Under the pieces are notes generated by a model. The model made no database searches. It was not told the DNA's origin and saw nothing but the letters and a program-made list of their open reading frames with translations. The translations under genes were made by a program, and so were the position numbers. From Thermoanaerobaculia bacterium (lineage in GTDB: Bacteria > Acidobacteriota > Thermoanaerobaculia > Multivoradales > JAHEKO01), in NCBI GenBank assembly GCA_945787575.1, contig CALZKB010000057.1, positions 1 to 34,583 of the forward strand: a DNA stretch of 34,583 bases, in the 5' to 3' direction. Below are positions 2,028 through 34,444 of this stretch, piece after piece. The first letter of the stretch is position 1, and every line of letters begins with the position of its first letter.

Positions 2028-3809
2028 ATGACGAGCTGGGTCAAGACGGCGCTAACGAGTCGCTGGCTGCAGGTTGCGGCGTTGCTGGCGCTGATCGTCG
2101 CCGTCTACGCCAACGTCTATCACAACGCCTATCAGCTGGACGACAGCTATCGAGTCCGCGACAACCCCCACATCCGCAAGGTGCTTCCGATGTCCCGGTT
2201 CTTCGAAGACCCGGACACGATGGCGACTTTGCCTCGGCTGGTTCAGTATCGACCGCTCTTGCCACTCAGCCTGGCGATCAACCGAGCTATCAGCGGGCCG
2301 AGCCTGGCCGGTTATCACATCGGTAACGTTCTGCTGCACGCGGCGGTCGTGGTCCTGGTGTATCTGCTGCTGCTGGAGCTCTTGACCCACTGGAGCAGGG
2401 TTCGGAGTGTGCAGGACCGCGCTGGACCCATGGCGTTCTTCGCCAGCGCCATCTTTGCCATCCATCCGATCGCTGGGATCCCGGTCAACTACATCAGCGC
2501 CCGGGACCTGCAGTTGATGGCGGTGTTCTTCTTGGGGTTCGTCCTGATCTGGGTGCGGATGCAGCGCCGCGGTAACACTGTCCATGGCTGGGTGTCGGCG
2601 CTGCTACTGCTTTTCTTGTCTCTACTCGCGAAGGAGAACGGCGTGGCGGCGCCGGCCCTGATGATCGCGTTCTCGGCGACCTGCTGCGGGCGTTCGCTGC
2701 GGTCGCGGCAAACCTGGCTGCCTGCTTTTGGGGTGGCGGCATTCGCCGGGCTGTATCTGGCGTTCGTGCGAATCGTGGTTGGGTTTTCGGGCTTCGCCAA
2801 CGTCGTGGGCCGGGGCCAGGGCGGTCCCTTGGGCTATCTCTGGACTCAGCTGAAGGTGCACCTCTTCGAGTACCTGCCGCTGGTGGCATGGCCCCTGCCC
2901 GTGCGGCAAGCGCCCCACGTAGAGCCAGTCGTGAGCTGGTTCGACCCCGCCGCGATCGCAGGAGCGGTGTTCCTCATCGGGACGCTGTACCTAGCCTGGC
3001 GACTGCGGCAGAGGCAGCCCTTGGTGGCGATGGCGATCCTGTCCTGGTGGATTCTCCTGGCGCTCACCTCTTCGATGATCCCAATGATCGCTGTATCGGT
3101 GCACTACCGACCGTACCTGTCGCTGGTGTTCGCGAGCTTGCTGGTGGCCATGGCGCTCTGGCACTGGCTACCCGCGCGATGGCTGGCGCCGATGGCAGGG
3201 CTGTTGCTAGTGCTGCTGGCGGTCGCCTCCTGGCGCCACAACGCGACCTGGGCCGACGACAAGCTGCTCTTTGATCACAGCGTGCGCTACGGCGGCGCAC
3301 CCTTAGCCCACCTCAACCTCGGCGTCGCTTGGATGGGTGTAGACAACCGCCGCGCCAGAGCTCACTTCGAGGACGCGCTGGAGATGAACCCGGCGTACGT
3401 CCTCGCCCGGCTCAACCTGGGTATCACCCGGGTCCGACTGGGCGACGTGGACGAGGGCCTCGCGCTAATGGAGGAGGCGATCCGCCAGGACCCCAAGCGT
3501 GCCCAGAGTCATCATTGGTATGCGGTGCTGCTCAACGAGGTGGGTCGCACCGAGCACGCCGCGTTGGCGAGCGCCACCGCGGCCGCCTTGCGCCCCGACG
3601 AGATCCGCTACCGCTACCGCGCCGCCCTCGATCAACAGGCGGTCGAAGACTTCGAAAAGAGCCTCGACGGCTGGTTCAACCTGGGCTGGGCCTACTTCGA
3701 CCTCGGCCGTTGCGAGGACGCCATCTACGCCTTCGAGCAGAGTCTGCGACTGCGGCCAGAGCATGCTGAAACCAAGGCCAAGATCGCCGAGTGCCGACTC
3801 GGACATTAG
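2028..3809 (+). CDS. Polytopic membrane protein with C-terminal TPR repeats (TMTC/GT-C-like)
   Basis: 593 residues. The first 400 or so hold about ten hydrophobic helices, from residue 13 on. The first extracytoplasmic loop carries an acidic pair in YQLDDSYRVRDNPHI (D38, D39), followed by a QYRPLLPLSLAINRA segment. This matches the layout of TMTC-type and other GT-C glycosyltransferases that use lipid-linked sugars. From about residue 425 there are three to four TPR repeats (AHLNLGVAW, ARLNLGITRVRLGD, GWFNLGWAYFDLGRCEDAIYAFEQSLRLRP). Protein O-glycosylation is plausible but not shown. The gene lies upstream of, and in line with, the cyclophilin lipoprotein and a second GT-C protein, and may be expressed with them. 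No clear Shine-Dalgarno precedes the ATG, so the start is the least certain part. Confidence 0.8.
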   Translation: MTSWVKTALTSRWLQVAALLALIVAVYANVYHNAYQLDDSYRVRDNPHIRKVLPMSRFFEDPDTMATLPRLVQYRPLLPLSLAINRAISGPSLAGYHIGNVLLHAAVVVLVYLLLLELLTHWSRVRSVQDRAGPMAFFASAIFAIHPIAGIPVNYISARDLQLMAVFFLGFVLIWVRMQRRGNTVHGWVSALLLLFLSLLAKENGVAAPALMIAFSATCCGRSLRSRQTWLPAFGVAAFAGLYLAFVRIVVGFSGFANVVGRGQGGPLGYLWTQLKVHLFEYLPLVAWPLPVRQAPHVEPVVSWFDPAAIAGAVFLIGTLYLAWRLRQRQPLVAMAILSWWILLALTSSMIPMIAVSVHYRPYLSLVFASLLVAMALWHWLPARWLAPMAGLLLVLLAVASWRHNATWADDKLLFDHSVRYGGAPLAHLNLGVAWMGVDNRRARAHFEDALEMNPAYVLARLNLGITRVRLGDVDEGLALMEEAIRQDPKRAQSHHWYAVLLNEVGRTEHAALASATAAALRPDEIRYRYRAALDQQAVEDFEKSLDGWFNLGWAYFDLGRCEDAIYAFEQSLRLRPEHAETKAKIAECRLGH

Positions 3810-4132
3810 CTTGGACCAGGCTACAGAGTCTCACTCGTGTTTTCGCGCCGCCGGCGTCCAAGGTCCTGGGCGAGCTCGGCGGCCGCCTGGGAGCGGACCG
3901 GCGCGAAGTGCGGCTCCGCGGCGAGGTGGCCCTGTCGAGATCTCTACCGGCGCACGTGTTCGTCCAGCTCCCCGTTCGGGCTTCGGAGAGGTCCTCTCCG
4001 GCTGTCATGACGGAGGAAGGACTAGGCCACGGATCGGGGTCCCGGCCCCGAATCTTCTGGTATAAAAGATCTTGTGTTGTGTGTGGGATTGCGCAGCCAC
4101 GGAAGGTGACAGGTTCTCGAGGCAGGGTCGCC
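3810..4132. other. Intergenic region upstream of cyclophilin lipoprotein
   Basis: 323 bases. The reading frame of the downstream gene happens to stay open through this stretch, but the translation lacks any signal peptide or known domain, so I treat it as non-coding. A short GC inverted repeat (CGGGG/CCCCG) lies near 4034-4050 and a TATAAA sequence at about 4061; without a matching -35 box I do not call a promoter. Confidence 0.45.
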
Positions 4133-5455
4133 ATGGTGACGTTGTGCCTCGTCCGGTCGCTGGTCCTCGGAGCGACGCTTGCGGGCCTGGCCGGTTGCCA
4201 AACCCCGACAGCGCCAACTGAGCCCCCCGGTCCTCGCCTGGTGATGCAGCGCTACGTGGAGCGGCTGCAACTGAACGGCTCGCTCGATCTCGAGGACCCC
4301 GACTGGAGGGCCAGGCTGCCGCCTCCCCCCGGTACGTCCTTCGACGAGCGGCGGGACTACTCATGGGTGGTCAACACGAGCCTGGGTAGCTTCACCGTGC
4401 GCCTCTTCTCCGATGTCGCTCCACGCCATGTAGCCAACATCGTCTACATGTCCGAGCTCGGCTACTACGAGGGGCTCTACTTCCATCATGTCGAGTCGGA
4501 ACTGATGGTGTATGGGGGTGGTCTTCGGCCCGATCGGGAGAGTGATCCGGGGACCGTCTACACCGTCGGCGAGACGCCGTTGAAGGAGGTGGGCTTCGAC
4601 CGGCCGGGTCGGGTGGCGATGGTCCGTCGCGACGGTGGCTCGCTCGGCGGTCGGTTCCTCGTGACCCTCGAGGAGACAACCTGGCTGGATGGGGATCACG
4701 CTGTCATCGGGCAGGTTGTGGAGGGCCTCGACACGGTCCGCCGTCTCGGGCGGAGCGTCGAGCAGGGTGAGCCAGAGGCGGCTCGCATCGACAGTACGCG
4801 GATCCTGGTCACTCCGAGCACGCTCGAGCAGGTGCGGCTTCACATCGCCCGTCTCAGCGGCATGGGCCTCCTGGATCGGAGCCGGGAGGACTGGCGCTCG
4901 GTGCTGCTGCCGGATCCTCCGAGGCTCAAGCCGGCGGTGGGCAAGTCTTTCACCTGGCACATCGAAACCAGCGAGGGTCCAATGGAGGTCCTTCTCTTTG
5001 CCGAAGAGGCGCCGCGGCACGTGGTCAATGTCCTGTACCTCTCCGAGCTGGGCTACTACGACGGGCTTTTCTTCCACCGGGTGATCCCCGGCTTCATGGC
5101 CCAAGGGGGTGGGATGGCTTGGAAGCGGGGTGGGGCAGCTCCTGGCTACGCCTTCCTGCAGGAGCGGTCGGTGAGTCACGACCGACCGTACCGGGTCGCC
5201 ATGGTCGCCGACAGCGTCTGGCTGTCCGTTGGAGGCCAATTCTTCGTGACCTACGCGGCCACCCCGTGGCTCGATGAGCTCAATACAGTTTTCGGCCAGG
5301 TCGTGGCGGGGTCTCGGACGCTGCGCCGGATCGAGACCTACGGCAGCCCCTCGGGCGCCACGTCGCGTCCTGTCACCATCGTCAGCACCCGGGTAGACGA
5401 GTCGAATGCCGGGAGCCGCTCTCTCCTGGAGGGCCCGGGAGGGGAGCTCCCGTGA
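4133..5455 (+). CDS. Lipoprotein with two tandem cyclophilin-type peptidyl-prolyl isomerase domains
   Basis: 440 residues, predicted envelope-anchored prolyl isomerase or chaperone. The ATG at 4133 is preferred over the longer open frame because it gives a clean lipoprotein signal ending in LAGC (Cys22). Two modules follow, each a short helical leader (pattern L-DR-x-DW-x-LP-PP) plus a cyclophilin domain. Module 2 keeps the catalytic signature FHRVIPGFMAQGG (R316, F321, Q324), with F-V-T and PWLD further on. Module 1 has FHHVESELMVYGG at the same place, so the Arg, Phe and Gln positions are H119, L124 and Y127; this domain is probably not a catalyst. The Arg positions are exactly 197 residues apart, as in the triple-cyclophilin paralogue at 17063-18925. 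The stop codon overlaps the GTG start of the next gene. Confidence 0.88.
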   Translation: MVTLCLVRSLVLGATLAGLAGCQTPTAPTEPPGPRLVMQRYVERLQLNGSLDLEDPDWRARLPPPPGTSFDERRDYSWVVNTSLGSFTVRLFSDVAPRHVANIVYMSELGYYEGLYFHHVESELMVYGGGLRPDRESDPGTVYTVGETPLKEVGFDRPGRVAMVRRDGGSLGGRFLVTLEETTWLDGDHAVIGQVVEGLDTVRRLGRSVEQGEPEAARIDSTRILVTPSTLEQVRLHIARLSGMGLLDRSREDWRSVLLPDPPRLKPAVGKSFTWHIETSEGPMEVLLFAEEAPRHVVNVLYLSELGYYDGLFFHRVIPGFMAQGGGMAWKRGGAAPGYAFLQERSVSHDRPYRVAMVADSVWLSVGGQFFVTYAATPWLDELNTVFGQVVAGSRTLRRIETYGSPSGATSRPVTIVSTRVDESNAGSRSLLEGPGGELP

Positions 5456-22981: not shown

Positions 22982-24205
22982 ATGGCGCTCTACGCATTCG
23001 ACGGCACGTGGAACAAGGATGAGGTCGACGAGCTGGACGACACCAACGTCGTCCGGTTCCGCGAGGTCTACGCTGGTGCCGATTACGAGTATCTTGCCGG
23101 AGTCGGGACGCGCTTCGGCGCGATCGGCCGCGCTCTCGGCGGCATCCTGGGAGCTGGTGGGCGCTCCAGGATTCGCGAGATGTACGAGACCCTGTGCGGC
23201 AACTGGCAGAAAGGCGACCGTGAAATCGACATCATCGGCTTCAGCCGCGGAGCCGCCCTGGCCGTCCACTTTGCGAACACGATCGGCAAGGAGGGCGTGA
23301 AGTGCCAGGACGGAACTGAGGCGAAACCGCAGGTGAGGTTTCTCGGCCTCTGGGACGTCGTGGGCTCTTTCGGGCTGTCGTTCGACACCTTCATCAACTT
23401 CCAGGACATCAACCTCGGCTGGGACATCGATAAGATCGCAAGCTGCGTGAAGAACTGCTATCACGCCATGGCTCTGGATGAGCGGCGGGAATCATTCAAC
23501 GTGACCCGGCTGAATGCGGAAGGCCGTCTGGACAACATCGAAGAGGTATGGTTTCGCGGCGTCCACAGCGATGTCGGCGGCGGTAACAAGAACGTCAAGC
23601 GATCGAACATCGCCCTCCAGTGGATGCTGGAGAAGGCGCGCGCTTGCGGCGTGCCGATCAACGACGTGCGGGCGAGCGAGTCGAAGTACAGCGTCGTCGA
23701 CAAGTGGGCGCCGATCTCCGAGAACAAGGACCCGAAGCGCGATCCGCGCAGACAGGTCCTTGATCACGACGTCAAGCATCCCTCCTCCGAGGGGCTCGAG
23801 CTGGGCGCCGGCCAATCCCACATCAGCACCGTTCTGGCCGCCCTCAAGTACAACTGGTCGGGAGTGCGGCTGCAGGCGGGCAAGAGCTACGCGATCGAAG
23901 TGAAGGGCGACCAACTCTGGCAGGACGGCGGAATCGAATGCGGTCCGGAGGGCTGGAAGACCGAGCAGCTTCCGTGGCTCAAAGAGAAGATCGTCGGTAC
24001 CTTCGAGGACAACCGACGCTACCCGGAGGCCAACTGGTTCGAGCTGATCGGCGCCGAGCGGGACGAAGACAAGGTGCTGTTTCGCGTCGGCGCCGGGGTT
24101 CGCTACGCGGCCAAGGAAGACGCAGACCTGTACTTTTTCGCCAACGATCTCAACTCCAAGTACGAGAACAACGAGGGCTTTCTCGAGGTGACGATCACCG
24201 GATGA
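22982..24205 (+). CDS. DUF2235-type alpha/beta hydrolase with C-terminal LecA-like domain
   Basis: 407 residues. Residues 1-270 are a DUF2235 hydrolase, the fold of Tle1-type phospholipase effectors: FDGTWN at the start, nucleophile elbow GFSRGA (S88), GLWDVVGSFG with the likely Asp, and GVHSDVGGG with the likely His. From about residue 290 a second domain begins AGKSYAIEVKGDQLWQDGG and ends FFANDLNSKYENNEGFLEVTI. That ending matches the calcium- and galactose-binding loop of PA-IL/LecA (NDxxxxYxNNxG), keeping the Asp and both Asn ligands. A sugar-targeted lipase or esterase is the natural reading. No signal peptide or secretion-system gene is nearby. AAGGAG sits before the ATG. The IS110 fragment upstream and toxin-antitoxin genes downstream suggest acquired DNA. 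Confidence 0.83.
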   Translation: MALYAFDGTWNKDEVDELDDTNVVRFREVYAGADYEYLAGVGTRFGAIGRALGGILGAGGRSRIREMYETLCGNWQKGDREIDIIGFSRGAALAVHFANTIGKEGVKCQDGTEAKPQVRFLGLWDVVGSFGLSFDTFINFQDINLGWDIDKIASCVKNCYHAMALDERRESFNVTRLNAEGRLDNIEEVWFRGVHSDVGGGNKNVKRSNIALQWMLEKARACGVPINDVRASESKYSVVDKWAPISENKDPKRDPRRQVLDHDVKHPSSEGLELGAGQSHISTVLAALKYNWSGVRLQAGKSYAIEVKGDQLWQDGGIECGPEGWKTEQLPWLKEKIVGTFEDNRRYPEANWFELIGAERDEDKVLFRVGAGVRYAAKEDADLYFFANDLNSKYENNEGFLEVTITG

Positions 24206-27955: not shown

Positions 27956-28237
27956 TCAGTCTTCAGTGCTCGCTACCGGGCCGGCGGCTTCGGCGAGCTG
28001 CGCTTTCACCCGTCCGGCCTGGACGGCCATGACCACGGCTTCGACGGCGCCGATCTCCTCGGCCGTCACGCCTTTCTTCTTGGCGACCCCAAGATAGTGC
28101 CGCATTCACGGATAGCACGCCACCGACATGGCGGTCGCCAGATGGAGGAGCAAAGTCGTCTTGACATCCAGCACATCGTTGAAGCGCGCCGCCTTGTAGA
28201 ACTGGTTGAAAGTCTCGTTCTGTGGCTCGGGTAGCAT
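27956..28237 (-). CDS. AhpD-like selenoprotein with CxxU motif (in-frame TGA read as Sec)
   Basis: 93 residues if the TGA at 28106-28108 is read as selenocysteine (U44). The ATG at 28237 has AGGAG 8 nt upstream. Translation runs MLPEPQNETFNQFYKAARF, DVKTTLLLHLATAMSVA, CYP-U-MRHYLGVAKKKG, VTAEEIGAVEAVVMAVQAGR, ending at TGA 27956-27958. This is the AhpD/carboxymuconolactone-decarboxylase fold, whose redox site is CxxC; here the second Cys is TGA, giving C41-x-x-U44 with H47 next. The family-like pattern continues for 49 codons after the TGA. AhpD-like CxxU selenoproteins are known from bacterial selenoproteome surveys, and a related, often Sec-containing peroxidase-like family accompanies arsenosugar biosynthesis. 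It lies 27 nt after arsM, so is co-transcribed. Role inferred: thiol/selenol redox for arsenic methylation or peroxide removal. Alternative: a nonsense-mutated gene. Confidence 0.8.
28078..28094 (-). promoter_or_regulatory. Candidate bacterial SECIS hairpin
   Basis: On the coding strand, 11 nt after the TGA, UCUUGG pairs with CCAAGA (6 bp perfect) around the loop GGUCG. Bacterial SECIS elements sit just downstream of the UGA inside the coding region and show a G-U in the apical loop bound by SelB; E. coli fdhF has GGUC there. The first loop G is 18 nt after the UGA, within the usual range (about 16-37). Confidence 0.65.
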
Positions 28238-28264
28238 CGGTCCGTCTCCTCTCGGTGTCGTTGT

Positions 28265-29161
28265 TCAGCTCTTTCGTGCGCGGAAGGTGACCGAGCGCAC
28301 GGTGCCGGCGAGATCCTCGACGCGGACGCCGGTCCGTTCCACCAAGGCGGCGACCTCGCCGGGTAGCGCGAATTCGGTCGCCGCGAGAAAGTCGTCGTCC
28401 TCGAGCACCTCGAACTCGCCGAGACCCGCCGCCTCCAGAGACGGGAAGTAGTCTTCACGAAGCATGGCGCCCGCGACACACCCGACATAGGCGAGCAGGT
28501 CCTGCCCCAGCGCCTCCGGCAGCGGCTTCGACAGCAAGATGTCGGCGATCACGGCACGGCCTCCGGGTCTCAGCACTCGGGCGATCTCCTGGAACACCCT
28601 GGTCTTGTCGGGGACCAGATTGATGACGCAGTTGCTCGTCACCGCGTCCACCGAGGCATCTTCGACGGGCAGCTCCTCCAGCCGGCCCTGCCGGAACTCG
28701 ACGTGTGAGAAGCCGGACCGCTCGACGTTCCTATTCGCCACGTGAATCATCTCTGGAGTCATGTCCACGCCGATGACCCGACCGTGGGGACCGACGCCGC
28801 GCGCCGCGAGGAGGGCGTCGAATCCACCTCCCGAGCCCAGGTCGAGAACGACCTCGCCCAGCTCGAGCTCGAGGTGCCGGACCGGGGCGCCGCAGCCGAG
28901 TCCCAGGTTGGCCTCTTCGGGAACCGCCGAGAGGTCCTCCTCGTCATAGCCGATGCTGCGCGATACGGTCTGTGACGTCGGATCGGCGCTCGCCGCCCCG
29001 CAGGCTGACGGCTCGCAGCATCCGCCCTCGCCCGCTGCGATCCGGCCGTAACGCTCCTTGACGGCCTCAACGACCCTCTCGGCGTCCGCGGGCGTCTTGT
29101 CTTGCGGTCGGAAGACCGTGCTTGGCTCAGGCTGTTTCTCGCGATGTGAAGCTCGACTCAT
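28265..29161 (-). CDS. arsM: Arsenite S-adenosylmethionine methyltransferase
   Basis: 298 residues. It methylates As(III) with SAM in the cytoplasm. Rossmann motif I is [11 protein letters not shown] (residues 105-115). The three arsenic-binding cysteines of the family are C90 (NLGLGCG), C178 (TSNCVINL) and C228 (YVGCVAGAM). The N-terminus adds C48, C49 and C54 in [11 protein letters not shown], next to [11 protein letters not shown]. The ATG at 29161 has GGAG 6 nt upstream and overlaps the marR stop by 4 nt; an upstream in-frame start would run deep into marR. It is the middle gene of marR-arsM-AhpD-like selenoprotein. Confidence 0.95.
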
Positions 29162-29688
29162 GTTCCACTCCTTTTCTCGGCTCGCGCCCCTTTGGGCTCG
29201 AGCAAGTGATCGAAAGCTCCGGGGCAACAGGACTCAGTCGCCAGGCGCACTGCGGCCGACAGCTCGTCGAGACTGTCGAGAACGGCGCGACGCCGGGCGG
29301 GAGCGAGCCGGTCGAGGATCGAGGCCGCGAAACGGTCGGATTGCCGCTCGATCTCTCGCGCGGCGCCCTCTCCTTTCAGCGTCAGCCGCACCCGGGCAGC
29401 TCGCGCGTCGGTGTCATCGGCGACGCGAATCACCAGGCCGCGGTTCTCCAGGCGCTCGAGGTTGCGGCTCACCGTGCTCGGCGCGATCCCCAAGCGGCGG
29501 CCGAGATCGCCCATCCGCAGGGGTCCCGCCGCCGCCAGAGCTTCGAGGCACGCGGCTTGCGCCACGGTCATGCCGCAGCAGGAGACGTCGGCCCGTGCCG
29601 ACAGCGAGAAGCGTCCAACCAGGCCGCGAATGGCGCGGCGCAGCGCGCGGGCGTCGGTCGATGAAACGGCGCTGGCGGTGTTTGGCAT
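29158..29688 (-). CDS. MarR-family regulator with vicinal Cys pairs, likely metalloid-responsive
   Basis: 176 residues. A winged helix spans about 57-105 (PLRMGDLGRRLGIAPSTVSRNLERLENRGLV, then the wing DDTDARAARVRLT). Cys pairs lie at both ends of the fold: C37-C38 in ADVSCCGMT plus C47, and C154-C155 in TESCCPGAF. As arsM overlaps it by 4 nt, the cysteines probably sense As(III) (or selenium/redox), releasing DNA to induce the operon; this is inference. The ATG at 29688 has GGAG 6 nt upstream. A 13-bp palindrome and a longer inverted repeat lie upstream as likely operators. The usual ars regulator is ArsR, so a MarR here is uncommon. Confidence 0.9.
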   Translation of the reverse strand: MPNTASAVSSTDARALRRAIRGLVGRFSLSARADVSCCGMTVAQAACLEALAAAGPLRMGDLGRRLGIAPSTVSRNLERLENRGLVIRVADDTDARAARVRLTLKGEGAAREIERQSDRFAASILDRLAPARRRAVLDSLDELSAAVRLATESCCPGAFDHLLEPKGARAEKRSGT

Positions 29689-29702: not shown

Positions 29703-29740
29703 GATAGTTGTATCATACAAGTTTGTAGAATGCAACTATC
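29703..29740 (-). promoter_or_regulatory. Operator and promoter region of the marR-arsM operon
   Basis: TTGTATCATACAA (29708-29720) is a perfect 13-bp palindrome of the size bound by MarR dimers. It contains the -10-like TATGAT on the coding strand (29712-29717). Around it GATAGTTG (29703-29710) and CAACTATC (29733-29740) form an 8-bp inverted repeat. Binding here would block transcription of the operon. No good -35 was found. Confidence 0.6.
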
Positions 29741-29825: not shown

Positions 29826-32671
29826 TTACAGCCTGTACGCCCCCACCTCCGGCTTGACCGGACGAATCAACCACCCCGGCCGCCTAGTCCCGTCGGGACT
29901 CACCTTACGCGCGGACCTCGTTTTCCGAACCCACTCGCGAAACGCCTCCACGCTCTTCTCCGCGTCCACCTCGATGTCTCCGTAGGCATCGTCCTCGCGC
30001 GCCTTCACCACCCGCACCGCCTGATGCCAACAGTGCATCCCACTCACCGGATCCGGATGCACTGCAAACGTCAGATTCTGATGCACCCCCACATCCGTCC
30101 ACCAGATCCTCCCCGTATCCGGGTCTGACGTCTCATAGGGCCCTGCCCCCTTCTCCTGCTTCAACTGCCAATCGCTGTTCGACCGATTGAGGCTGGCGGT
30201 CGCCATCATCTGCCGCTGCCCTTCCCCTTCGTGCTCGGCGAGTTTCCATCGGCCCATGTGGTGCGAACAGGCCACCACTCCGGGCCGAATCCCCTCTGTG
30301 ACCCAGGCTTTGACGACGAAGTAGCCGATCTCGGTCTCGACCCGCACGAGGTCGCCGGTTCGCACGCCGAGCTCTTCCGCGTGGTTCGGATGAATCCATA
30401 GCGGGTTGGTGTGGGCGATCTCGTCCAGCCACTTTGCGTTCGCCGATCGCGTGTGAATCTGCACCGGCAGCCGGAACGTCGAGATCAGCACATGCTGATC
30501 CTCCTGCAGGTTCTCGGGATGGACGTGGCTGCGCATGTAGGTCGGAATCGCCACGTGATTCCACCCCCAGCTCGCGAGCGTGGGCGAGTAGAACTCGAGC
30601 TTCCCCGATGGGGTCGGGAAGCCGCGCAACACTTCCCCATCGACCTCGACCCCGCACAGCCGCCGCCCCTCGCCGTCGCCGTCAGGCGTGCCGATGGGGG
30701 CGATGTTGATCTTGGGGGGCGCTTCGCCGCGGGTGAAGACCCGGCCGTGGGGGTCGGTGACTAGGTCGACGAGCTCGGCGTCAGGGACTCGCGCCGCGTA
30801 GGGCGTCTCGACCTCGCCTTCGGGCGCTACTTCGAAGGCGCCGTAGCGACGCATGTACTCGAGCGGCTCGAGGCCTTCGGCGGTGGCCTTCTCGGGTAAG
30901 CCGGGAACCGAGTTCCCGAAGATGTATCCGTAGTACTCATCGACGCCCAGCCTCGTACCTGGATTCTCTCGACTCTCCACAAACTCCCTGATGCCCAGAT
31001 CCCCATCCGGGTCGATTCGCCAAGAGAGCTCGAGCCAGAACTCGTTCTCCTCCCAGACTTCGCCGGGGTTGACCTGACGGGTGTCGTCGATCTGGAGGCC
31101 CAGTCGATCTTGAGCGGCGCGCCGCACCGGTTGCCGGAAGCCGATCCACTGCCCGGCGTGGGTCTCGTAGGAGTGGATGTCGTGGCGCTCGGAGGAGTGG
31201 CCCATGGGGAGGATCAGGTCGGCGAAGTAGGCGGTCTCGTTCCAGGTCGGGGTGAGCGCCACGTGGATGCCGACTTTCGACTCGTCGGTCAGCATGTCGA
31301 TCCAGGCAAAGCCGTCGGGGTTGGTCCACACCGGGTTGTAGACGCGGGTGAAGTAGGTGTCGAGGTAGGCGTTCTGCTCGCGGACCAGGTGCGGCAGGAG
31401 GAAGGAGAGCTCGTACATCGAGAGCGGCCATTCCTCGGGCCAGGTCAGGGTGTTCCAGTAGTCGGGGTGCCGGGGCAGGCGGATCGGCTTGGCGACGAAC
31501 TTGTTCCACGCGTTCAGGTGGGTGCCGCCTGGGGTGCCGACGGAGCCGGTCAGGGCGTTCAAGAGGAACAAGGTCCGCGCGACCTGCCAGCCGCCTTCGT
31601 TGGAGGAGGAGGCGCTGCGCCAGTTGTGGGTGGACAGCCGGCTGCCGGCCTCGGCGACGGTCTGGGCGACCTCGGCGATCTCCTCCGCGTCGATGCCGCT
31701 CTCGCCCGCGGCAAAGTCGAAGGTGTAGCCCTCGTATTCGGCGGCGAGCATCTTCTCGAAGTTCTCGAAGGTCGATTCCAGACCGGGGTGGACCGCCTCG
31801 AGGTACTCGCTCCAGTTCCACCACTTGCGGACGAACTCGCGGTCGTACTGCCGGGTCTGGATCAGGTGGTTGGCGATCGCCAGGTTGAGCGCTGCCTCGG
31901 AGCCGGGGACGGTGGCGAGCCAGTGGTCGGCGTGGGTGGCGGTGTTCGAGAGCCTGGTGTCGAGGACGATCAGCTTGGCGCCGTTGGCCTTCGCCTCCAT
32001 GATCCGCTGGGCGTGGGGATTGAAGTAGTGGCCGGTCTCGAGATGCGAGGAGATCAGGTAGATGACCTTGGCGCGGGCGTGGTCGGGGCTCGGGCGGTCG
32101 ATGCCGGCCCAGAACTGGTAGCCGGCGCGGGCGGCGGCCGAGCAGATGTTGGTGTGGGAGTTGTGGCCGTCGACCCCCCAGGCAGCCATGATCCGCTCGG
32201 TGAAGCCGTCCTCGCCGGGCCGGCCGACGTGGTACATGATCTCCTTCTTGCGCCCCTCGCGCATGGCCTTCGCGAGGCGCTCGGCGAGGGTGTCGAGCGC
32301 CTCGTCCCAGGTGATGCGCTCCCATTTGCCTTCGCCGCGGGCGCCGGCGCGTTTCAGGGGATAGAGGATGCGGTCGGGGTCGGTGATCTGGTTGAGGGTC
32401 GCCGGGCCCTTGGCGCAGTTGCGGCCGCGCGATCCGGGGTGCTCGGGGTTGCCCTCGAACTTGCGGATCTGCATGGTGTCCTTGTCGATGTAGGCCAGCA
32501 GTCCGCAGGCCGACTCGCAGTTGAAGCAGGTGGTCGGCACCAGCATGTAGCGCTTCTCGACCCGCTTCGGCCAGGCCCTGGAATCCAGCTCTCGCCGCGG
32601 GCTTCGGTGGCCGACTTGGCGGCAGAGACTCGTTCGTTGAGGGAGCGCTTGTACTGGTCTAGGTCGGTCAC
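29826..32671 (-). CDS. Molybdopterin oxidoreductase catalytic subunit (DMSO reductase family), one frameshift
   Basis: About 948 residues after correction. CFNCESACG...NCAKG (Cys about 49, 52, 56, 86) binds one [4Fe-4S] cluster. Domains for bis-MGD follow: RITWDEALDTLAERL, VIYLISSHLETGHYF, LIVLDTRLSNTATHADHWL, and the C-terminal HTRSANAKWLDE with WIHPNHAEELGVRTGDLVRV. The Mo ligand should be the Cys of HTNICSAAARAG (about 177), as in polysulfide, thiosulfate, tetrathionate and arsenate reductases. The N-terminus (MTDLDQYKRSLNERVSAAKS) has no Tat signal, so it probably stays cytoplasmic. The frame breaks at 32576-32578: SWIPG must continue as AWPKRVEKRYMLVPTTC, explained by one missing G. GTG start at 32671, weak ribosome site. 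It is downstream of, and transcribed with, the FeS/NrfD gene. Substrate unknown. Confidence 0.85.
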
Positions 32672-32752
32672 GAAAGGTATCCCGTCGAGCGGTGCAGAGG
32701 AGTCAAGGTGGCCGGGGGGCCCTTGCCTCCGGAGGACACTCCGATCCCGCCC

Positions 32753-34306
32753 TTACGCAATCGGCACCGCCTGGGCTGATTGAACGTAGGCGTGCTCGAA
32801 GAGGCCGAGGCCGGCCACTGCACCGAGGGCGAGGATCGCCGACACGGCCGGGCCGGCCGCCCAGGGGGCGAGGCAGCCGAGAGCGCCGCCGAGGAGGCCG
32901 AGCCAGAAAAAGGTGCCGTAGCGTCCGGTGGTCATCTCCTTGACCGCCAGCGCCGCGTGGGCGGTGCCGTGCGGCAGGGTGACCTCGCCGGCGACGAGCA
33001 GCAGGTGGACCAGTGAGCTGACCGCCAGGACCCAGCCGAGCGCCTCGACCGCGCGAGGCTCGAAGACGAGGCAAGCGACGAGGAGGGCGGCGCTACCCCC
33101 GACGAATGCCTGGACCAGCAGATGGGCCGGCAGCAGCGGGTTCTGCCAGAGGTCGCGCCCCTTGGCCTGGGCGAAGAGGTAGGCCGTGTACACCGCTGTT
33201 GCGGCTGCCGCCAGCGCCGCCGGCGGCACGATGAACCGGTACCACGGCTGCTCGAACAAGGTGGAGAGCAGGTGGAATCCGAGCAGAAGGGAGTAGGCAC
33301 CGATGATGAAGGCGCCGCGCACCAGCCAGCTCTTCCACTGCGGGCGGGTGAAGATGTAATAGAAGCGCTTGGGGTGCTCGAGGTCGGCGATGAGCAAGAC
33401 GCCGGTGAAGGCGAGGAAGAGGGCGGCGATGAGCGGCGTGCCCCAGCGCCACAGCCAGTCGACCGGGCCCGGGACGAAGAGCAAGGCGAGATAGGCCCCC
33501 GTGGCGATCGACTTGGTGAGGGTGTAGGCGCTGACCTTCCAATCCCAGGGGATCTTGTGGGGGACGTCGTAGGAAAGCAGCGCCGCCGCCGAGGAGTTGG
33601 CGTGGGCGTCCCGGCCGCCGGGGTGGCCTGAGACGACCCGCTCGACTCCCCCGTTTGCTGGACCGAGCTGCTCCGACCACATGAAGAGGCCGCCCTCCGG
33701 GCGCCTGGCGGCGAGGGGGTCGAGAGTGGCTTGGTGGGCGCCGCGGTAGAAGAGCTTGGGGCCGGTCTCCTTCTCGGGACGCCGCACCGTGACCGGCTGG
33801 CCGTGGACCATCTGGGCGACCCGCGAGGCCGGGTCGTTCAGGTCGCCGATCATGATCGCCTCGGTCGGGCAGACGACCGAGCAGGCGGGCTCGAGGCCGA
33901 CGTCGACCCGGTGGGCGCAGAAGTTGCACTTCTCGGCCGAGTGGTCGTCGGGGTTGATGAAGATCGCGTCGTAGGGGCAGGCGGCCATGCACGCCTTGCA
34001 GCCGATGCAGATCGACTTGTCGAAGTCGACGATGCCGTCGTCGCGGGTGAACATCGCGGCGGTCGGGCAGGCGGTCGTGCACGGGGCGTCGGCGCACTGG
34101 TTGCAGCGGGTGACCTGGAAGGCGCGCCGCGCCAAGGGGAACTCGCCGACGTCGACGTACTTGACGTAGGTGCGGTTGACCGAGAGCGGCAGCTCGTTTT
34201 CGGACTTGCACGCCGTGGAACAGGCGTGGCAGCCGATGCAGCTCTCATGGTCGATGACCTTGGCCCACCTGGGGGTGGGCGTGGGAACAGTGGAGAGGGG
34301 TTCCAT
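32753..34306 (-). CDS. Fused four-cluster ferredoxin and NrfD-type membrane subunit
   Basis: 517 residues from the ATG at 34306 (a longer upstream extension is Pro-rich and unconvincing). Residues 15-190 hold four [4Fe-4S] motifs as in DmsB/PsrB/NrfC: CIGCHACSTAC, CNQCADAPCTTACP, CIGCKACMAACP, CNFCAHRVDVGLEPACSVVCP. After a linker come eight or nine membrane helices of NrfD/PsrC type, which exchange electrons with quinol (KVSAYTLTKSIATGAYLAL, LLIADLEHPKRFYYIFTRPQWKSWLVRG). In most complexes these are two proteins; here one chain does both, tying the molybdoenzyme at 29826 to the membrane. No clear ribosome site precedes the ATG. It is divergent from tusA. Confidence 0.9.
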   Translation of the reverse strand: MEPLSTVPTPTPRWAKVIDHESCIGCHACSTACKSENELPLSVNRTYVKYVDVGEFPLARRAFQVTRCNQCADAPCTTACPTAAMFTRDDGIVDFDKSICIGCKACMAACPYDAIFINPDDHSAEKCNFCAHRVDVGLEPACSVVCPTEAIMIGDLNDPASRVAQMVHGQPVTVRRPEKETGPKLFYRGAHQATLDPLAARRPEGGLFMWSEQLGPANGGVERVVSGHPGGRDAHANSSAAALLSYDVPHKIPWDWKVSAYTLTKSIATGAYLALLFVPGPVDWLWRWGTPLIAALFLAFTGVLLIADLEHPKRFYYIFTRPQWKSWLVRGAFIIGAYSLLLGFHLLSTLFEQPWYRFIVPPAALAAAATAVYTAYLFAQAKGRDLWQNPLLPAHLLVQAFVGGSAALLVACLVFEPRAVEALGWVLAVSSLVHLLLVAGEVTLPHGTAHAALAVKEMTTGRYGTFFWLGLLGGALGCLAPWAAGPAVSAILALGAVAGLGLFEHAYVQSAQAVPIA

Positions 34307-34444
34307 GTGATGAGGAGCATAACCGACGGGCGGGTTGACGACGGCTCCTCCTGGGCCGTCTCGGGCTAGCGGCAGGGGGCGAGAAGAGAACGCTGGCCGC
34401 GGGTGCGGCGCCACCCTGCAGACCGGCCTGGGCGAGGGATCGCG

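Follow-up and report, generated by a model that had tools for sequence, protein, structure and literature searches.

A predicted CxxU selenoprotein of the CMD/AhpD fold encoded beside arsM in a Thermoanaerobaculia bacterium, with relatives beside arsM and hgcAB in other bacteria

Described selenoproteins and the present locus

AhpD/CMD-like selenoproteins with a CxxU motif and a selenocysteine-containing ArsM-AhpD fusion are already known. The CMD-like and AhpD-like 2 CxxU selenoproteins (PF02627) were catalogued in the Global Ocean Sampling survey (PMC2398784) and appear again in PMC13188914. PMC13188914 also lists the ArsM/AhpD-domain selenoprotein fusion NF041537 (ArsM_AhpD_UU), credited to Haft and Tolstoy 2025, and credits the selenocysteine forms in methylmercury biosynthesis to the work of Haft. 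The location of hgcAB near arsR, arsM and acr3 has been published, as has a MarR gene upstream of hgcA in Geobacter daltonii and Dethiobacter alkaliphilus (PMC7438021, PMC10349881).

We analysed a window of 34,583 nt, the whole stretch of DNA considered here, in which a gene that we call ahpD(Sec) follows marR and arsM. The NF041537 fusion likewise joins ArsM to an AhpD domain with CxxU, but in the window ArsM and AhpD are separate genes, ArsM is without selenocysteine and a cysteine-rich MarR is the probable regulator; the AhpD protein belongs to a distinct subfamily (CxPU-M-x-x-Y) and scores 40.9 bits with NF041537 (cut-off 510), outside that family. The GSU3128 family (NF041047) also consists of short AhpD homologues with CxxU, but the window protein is not a member (38 bits, cut-off 110). 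The arsenosugar-associated peroxidase-like family TIGR04169 is similarly AhpD-like and found beside arsenic metabolism, and again the window protein falls outside it (18.8 bits, cut-off 120). PF02627 and CxxU are shared with the Global Ocean Sampling proteins, and the passages on them in PMC2398784 and PMC13188914 describe no operon link to arsM or hgcAB. The hgcAB-arsenic clusters have the same arsenic-gene and MarR neighbours as our loci, but the passages on them in PMC7438021 and PMC10349881 do not mention an AhpD selenoprotein.

In the literature on hgcA with carboxymuconolactone decarboxylase, on GSU3128 and on MarR with ArsM we did not find this arrangement described. Three elements appear to be new: the free-standing CxPU-M-x-x-Y subfamily, which by its scores lies below the cut-offs of the matched curated NCBIfam models; its repeated operon link to arsM and hgcAB, where priority for the unfused pairs is not certain; and the cysteine-rich MarR with a shared operator.

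Operon linkage to arsM and hgcAB and the proposed function

The following features were assigned in the window.

27956..28237, minus strand: ahpD(Sec), predicted CMD/AhpD-fold selenoprotein gene, stop TGA at 27956-27958 included (TGA=U translation, PF02627, homologues conserved on both sides of the TGA, AlphaFold2)
28078..28094, minus strand: bSECIS-type hairpin UCUUGG-GGUCG-CCAAGA (covariation in 28 sequences and RNAalifold)
28106..28108, minus strand: in-frame UGA, codon 44, predicted to be read as selenocysteine (TGA in 47 of 48 core loci)
28246..28250, minus strand: ribosome-binding site AGGAG, 8 nt before the ATG of ahpD(Sec) (from the sequence)
28265..29161, minus strand: arsM, As(III) S-adenosylmethionine methyltransferase, Cys rather than Sec form (NF008823, 299.4 bits, above the cut-off of 263)
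29158..29688, minus strand: marR, cysteine-rich MarR-family regulator (PF12802, 62.2 bits; invariant cysteines)
29706..29722, minus strand: candidate MarR operator ACTTGTA-TGA-TACAACT, 17 nt upstream of marR (shuffles give an expectation of 0.01 matches)

The gap between the arsM stop and ahpD(Sec) is 27 nt and arsM and marR overlap by 4 nt, and with this tight spacing the three genes are a single unit. Upstream of marR (29826-34414, minus strand) lie genes for a molybdopterin oxidoreductase and a Fer4/NrfD subunit, unconserved upstream of the corresponding operon in genome G008, and elsewhere in the window (22982-24205, plus strand) a protein with a T6SS Tle1-like phospholipase domain is encoded (PF09994, 147.6 bits).

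The window ArsM keeps the cysteines of LGLGCG, SNCVINL and GCVAGA, which are common to the other ArsM neighbours of ahpD(Sec). Of the 42 core loci whose context is usable, 9 have arsM on the same strand no more than 1.1 kb away; they span four phylum-level groups, with either MarR or ArsR as the regulator: the window, L041/L056, the deltaproteobacterial L065, L066, L067 and L070, L076 (Anaerolineales), L083 (Methylomirabilota) and L151/L181. The exact order marR-arsM-ahpD(Sec) was found in only one other genome, that of the Thermoanaerobaculia locus L041/L056 (arsM 80% and marR 83% identical); the order in L083 is marR-ahpD(Sec)-arsM, and arsR is the first gene in L065-L067 and L076, with acr3 near in L065 and L067. 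Distant Cys homologues, examined in the same way, had arsM directly adjacent only in L150, and three others merely share arsM islands with the Sec gene. The NF041537-type fused ArsM-AhpD was detected in Desulfobacterota (L166, 584 bits, cut-off 510). A second short CMD protein of Cys type (CIPC) is encoded in three ahpD(Sec) arsenic islands (L065:7406-7576, L066:5343-5513, L067:3297-3470).

The mercury methylation genes hgcA and hgcB, all above the NCBIfam cut-offs, adjoin ahpD(Sec) in four loci, in two of which (L076 and L181) arsM is present as well.

L064 (Geobacter), 2930-5249: marR-hgcA-hgcB-ahpD(Sec)
L182, 3125-5339: marR-hgcA-hgcB-ahpD(Sec)
L076, 3631-6863: arsR-arsM-ahpD(Sec)-hgcA-hgcB
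L181, 3372-6561: hgcC-arsM-ahpD(Sec)-hgcA-hgcB

The hgcAB-ahpD(Sec) pairing is a minority arrangement, because none of the best 30 hgcA loci in the Desulfobacterota sample has an adjacent ahpD(Sec), and about 3 of some 109 hgcA-positive genomes in that sample are known to have one. The co-occurrence of hgcA with ahpD(Sec) in Desulfobacterota (9/12 against 97/363, Fisher p ~9e-4) is a rough figure, with kinship uncontrolled and slightly differing samples, and is not the main evidence. On another contig, the genome of the window carries hgcA (427.7 bits) and, next to it, hgcB (G000:C34:56132-57073; L192, L223), and the organism is therefore a putative mercury methylator.

The MarR regulator is another shared element. 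Five MarR proteins encoded in related arsM or hgcAB operons all have C37, G39, Q44, C154 and C155, although the distant ones among them are only 27-30% identical to the MarR of the window; from the cysteines we infer metal sensing. The sequence ACTTGTA-TGA-TACAACT is a good candidate for the operator of this MarR: the sequence ACTTGTA-CAG-TACAAGT stands at the marR start of L083, and among the 223 loci CTTGTA-N3-TACAA occurs at two distinct places only, in the window and before the L083 marR. A sigma-70-type promoter match was not found in the region. The cysteine-rich MarR and the operator provide a testable candidate arsenic sensor.

ArsM turnover forms protein disulfides and requires a thiol reductant, and a CxxU protein next to ArsM, or fused with it, fits this need. 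We propose, with a probability of roughly 0.5, that the CMD/AhpD-fold selenoprotein acts through its CxxU as a thiol-selenol redox partner for the methylation of thiol-loving metal(loid)s, here serving the adjacent ArsM. The MarR dithiol would sense As(III) or a related species and leave the operator before marR, and marR, arsM and ahpD(Sec) would thereby be co-expressed. The ArsM cysteines would bind As(III), which ArsM would methylate, and the CxxU of AhpD(Sec) would reduce the disulfides formed in ArsM via a transient selenenylsulfide and would also hold the metalloid in a trivalent, thiol-bound state. In some lineages HgcAB would be served in the same way.

Selenocysteine decoding, repeated operon linkage to arsM and hgcAB and a conserved cysteine-rich MarR are what the computation provides, and the role of the protein as the reductant of ArsM, proposed initially, is what we infer from them. 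The link to ArsM, also part of that proposal, is real: four phylum-level groups show the pairing, and ArsM and AhpD also occur naturally fused. The link is not exclusive, however: hgcAB are neighbours too, and neither arsM nor hgcA is nearby in 31 of the 42 ahpD(Sec) loci, most of those in the window's own family among them, and the protein is hence not an exclusive partner of ArsM. That unrelated bacteria carry ahpD(Sec) next to genes for arsenic or mercury methylation points to a selenium-dependent helper common to the handling of these two toxic elements. In its full form, as a shared selenium-dependent accessory of ArsM and HgcAB methylation, partly under a previously undescribed cysteine-rich MarR metal(loid) sensor with the operator ACTTGTA-N3-TACAAsT, this idea is tentative. 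If it is true, selenium supply would limit arsenic, and perhaps mercury, methylation in some bacteria, which would be relevant to methylarsenic and methylmercury in soils and sediments.

It is possible, and we would give this a minor but real share of the weight, that the protein is mainly metal(loid)-binding, its thiol-selenol pair capturing As(III), methylarsenite, Hg(II) or methylmercury and passing it to or from the methyltransferase, or sequestering it. The recurrent partners (arsM, hgcAB, acr3 and an ArsP_1 permease) share a soft metal(loid) substrate and not one redox reaction, the Sec site is without the AhpD proton relay, and binding would account for the hgcAB link more directly than the redox form; a 2026 review in AEM also suggests metal-binding selenocysteine in other metal-related selenoproteins (PMC13188914). 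However, the fold that carries the CxxU motif is redox-active in its characterised members, AhpD for one, and many loci have no metal-related neighbour. The redox and binding forms are not separable by sequence.

The neighbours of ahpD(Sec) vary in most loci (cupin, DinB-like, DUF3788, ABC transporter genes and others), as would be expected of a housekeeping thiol-selenol oxidoreductase that came to lie behind arsM by chance in a few lineages. This is unlikely, since the adjacency in 9 of 42 loci involves four phylum-level groups with differing regulators and gene orders, chance adjacency to a one- or two-copy gene is estimated at well under 1%, and fusion of the two proteins has occurred naturally in NF041537. 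On the tree the arsM/hgcA-linked label changes at least 7 times (7-8 in bootstrap), and the link has thus been gained or lost repeatedly.

Fold and active-site residues

The AlphaFold2 model (mean pLDDT 90.5) predicts four helices with the selenocysteine near the start of the third. It matches the CMD proteins 3bey and RclX (7y4r) best, with M. tuberculosis AhpD lower, and the comparison with 3bey (Z 9.1, rmsd 4.3 over 83 residues) places the model in the CMD helical fold. The PF02627 match, which spans the TGA, assigns the protein to the CMD family by score as well (44 bits, cut-off 23).

The peroxidase relay of AhpD consists of a Glu 12 residues before the first Cys and a His 4 residues after the second. 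The relay is absent from the Sec subfamily: none of 47 Sec members has Glu at the position 12 residues ahead of the first Cys, which is mostly aliphatic, and 46 of them have Tyr 4 residues past the Sec; of 35 Cys homologues, 25 have Glu and 25 have His at the respective relay positions. The CMD/AhpD fold with a CxxC-like motif would suit an AhpD-type peroxidase clearing the peroxides formed by trivalent methylarsenicals, an option raised in the initial annotation, but a peroxidase role is unlikely because the relay Glu and His are replaced, and this particular version of it is very improbable; the score with the peroxidase-like TIGR04169 is also far below the cut-off, and many ahpD(Sec) carriers belong to usually anaerobic lineages. 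A partner in thiol-selenol redox chemistry or in metal(loid) handling fits these residues better than a peroxidase.

Reading frame and selenocysteine decoding

The feature is carried by the minus strand and read from 28237 down to 27956; the plus-strand reading of 27956-28237 is meaningless. The gene has 94 codons for 93 residues and a single internal TGA, at codon 44 (C41-Y-P-U44), with 49 codons beyond it. With TGA read as U, the translation is MLPEPQNETFNQFYKAARFNDVLDVKTTLLLHLATAMSVACYPUMRHYLGVAKKKGVTAEEIGAVEAVVMAVQAGRVKAQLAEAAGPVASTED, followed by the stop TGA. All the numbers given initially for the frame (the 94 codons, the TGA at the second Cys of CxxC, the 49 codons after it and the distance to arsM) were confirmed, with the then unstated strand now added, and so was the good ribosome site. 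The terminal TGA looks like an ordinary stop, because the stop codon varies between homologues and their tails show no conservation. At the internal TGA, standard annotation would break ahpD(Sec) in two or overlook it; the gene is small and testable.

The assembly of the window's genome (97.5% complete) contains tRNA-Sec (72.3 bits, anticodon TCA) together with selA, selB and selD, that is, the whole of selA to selD. The selD gene itself (L018, G000:C27:10276-11208) has an internal TGA, consistent with a Sec-containing SelD. Of the ahpD(Sec) genomes tested, nearly all have selA; it was not detected in two MAGs, G014 (69% complete) and G510.

The bacterial family to which the window belongs provides seven more copies, including one in the window's genome; each has a single TGA, at the corresponding codon, and they are 58-85% identical. 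The window's genome contains the second ahpD(Sec) paralogue (G000:C76:3286-3540, L046; 58% identical) between cupin and DinB-like genes, in the same order as in L047, and a short ahpD(Sec) fragment with the TGA (G000:C138:12740-12820, L048), which loses similarity after the motif and looks decayed.

A contig scan with the window protein as the sole query gave no confirmed relative. A profile scan with the eight-row alignment, using patterns that did not assume a TGA, gave 35 loci from Acidobacteriota, deltaproteobacterial lineages, Neomarinimicrobiota, Chloroflexota, Zixibacteria, Planctomycetes, Gemmatimonadota, WOR-3 and Methylomirabilota, with TGA at the Sec codon in 34 of them. When all searches were pooled, the core loci (at least 90 bits) amounted to about 48 distinct relatives from about ten phyla; TGA is conserved in 47 of 48, and a Cys form exists in L156.

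Rfam at gathering thresholds gave no match in the window, and the hairpin was therefore tested by covariation. All 28 aligned genes have the hairpin, with standard pairs in 98.5% of the pair cells; two pairs are compensated, being C-G in some genes and U-A in others (18 cells in total), the covariation score was reached by none of 500 shuffles, and RNAalifold independently gives the same helix. The apical loop begins 17 nt after the UGA, the stem has 6-7 bp and the loop starts with G (GGUCG or GUG). The 61-nt folds (-11.6 to -18 kcal/mol) and the geometry agree with the bSECIS constraints as quoted in PMC13188914 (stem 4-16 bp, loop 3-9 nt, G in loop positions 1-2, 16-37 nt after the UGA, MFE at most -7.5 kcal/mol). 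When sequences are folded singly, the hairpin region does not clearly outperform shuffles (z -1.95 to +0.31), and the case for a SECIS element therefore rests on the covariation.

Taken with the tRNA-Sec and the sel genes, the TGA conserved in nearly all relatives and the retained bSECIS-type hairpin predict that the window gene encodes a selenoprotein. The CxxU selenoprotein proposed in the initial annotation is thus supported, and the findings named there as contrary to it (absent sel genes, no conservation downstream of the TGA, or TGC or TGT in its place) were looked for and none of them overturned it. A true stop at this TGA, whether in a pseudogene, through an assembly error or between two short proteins with re-initiation at the following ATG, is extremely improbable and was rejected: TGAATG is indeed invariant in the 28 aligned genes, but the same codon recurs in independent assemblies across phyla, the protein is conserved on both sides of it, the hairpin covaries, the genome has the Sec genes, and the Met is a feature of the protein, kept in the Cys member L156 (CYPC-M) and replaced in distant Sec members without the ATG (U-T, U-A).

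The one locus of the TGA-agnostic scan with another codon is L090 (4998-5135), a partial Desulfobacula copy in which CGA (Arg) replaces the Sec codon (CYPR), through either a sequencing error or the loss of selenocysteine.
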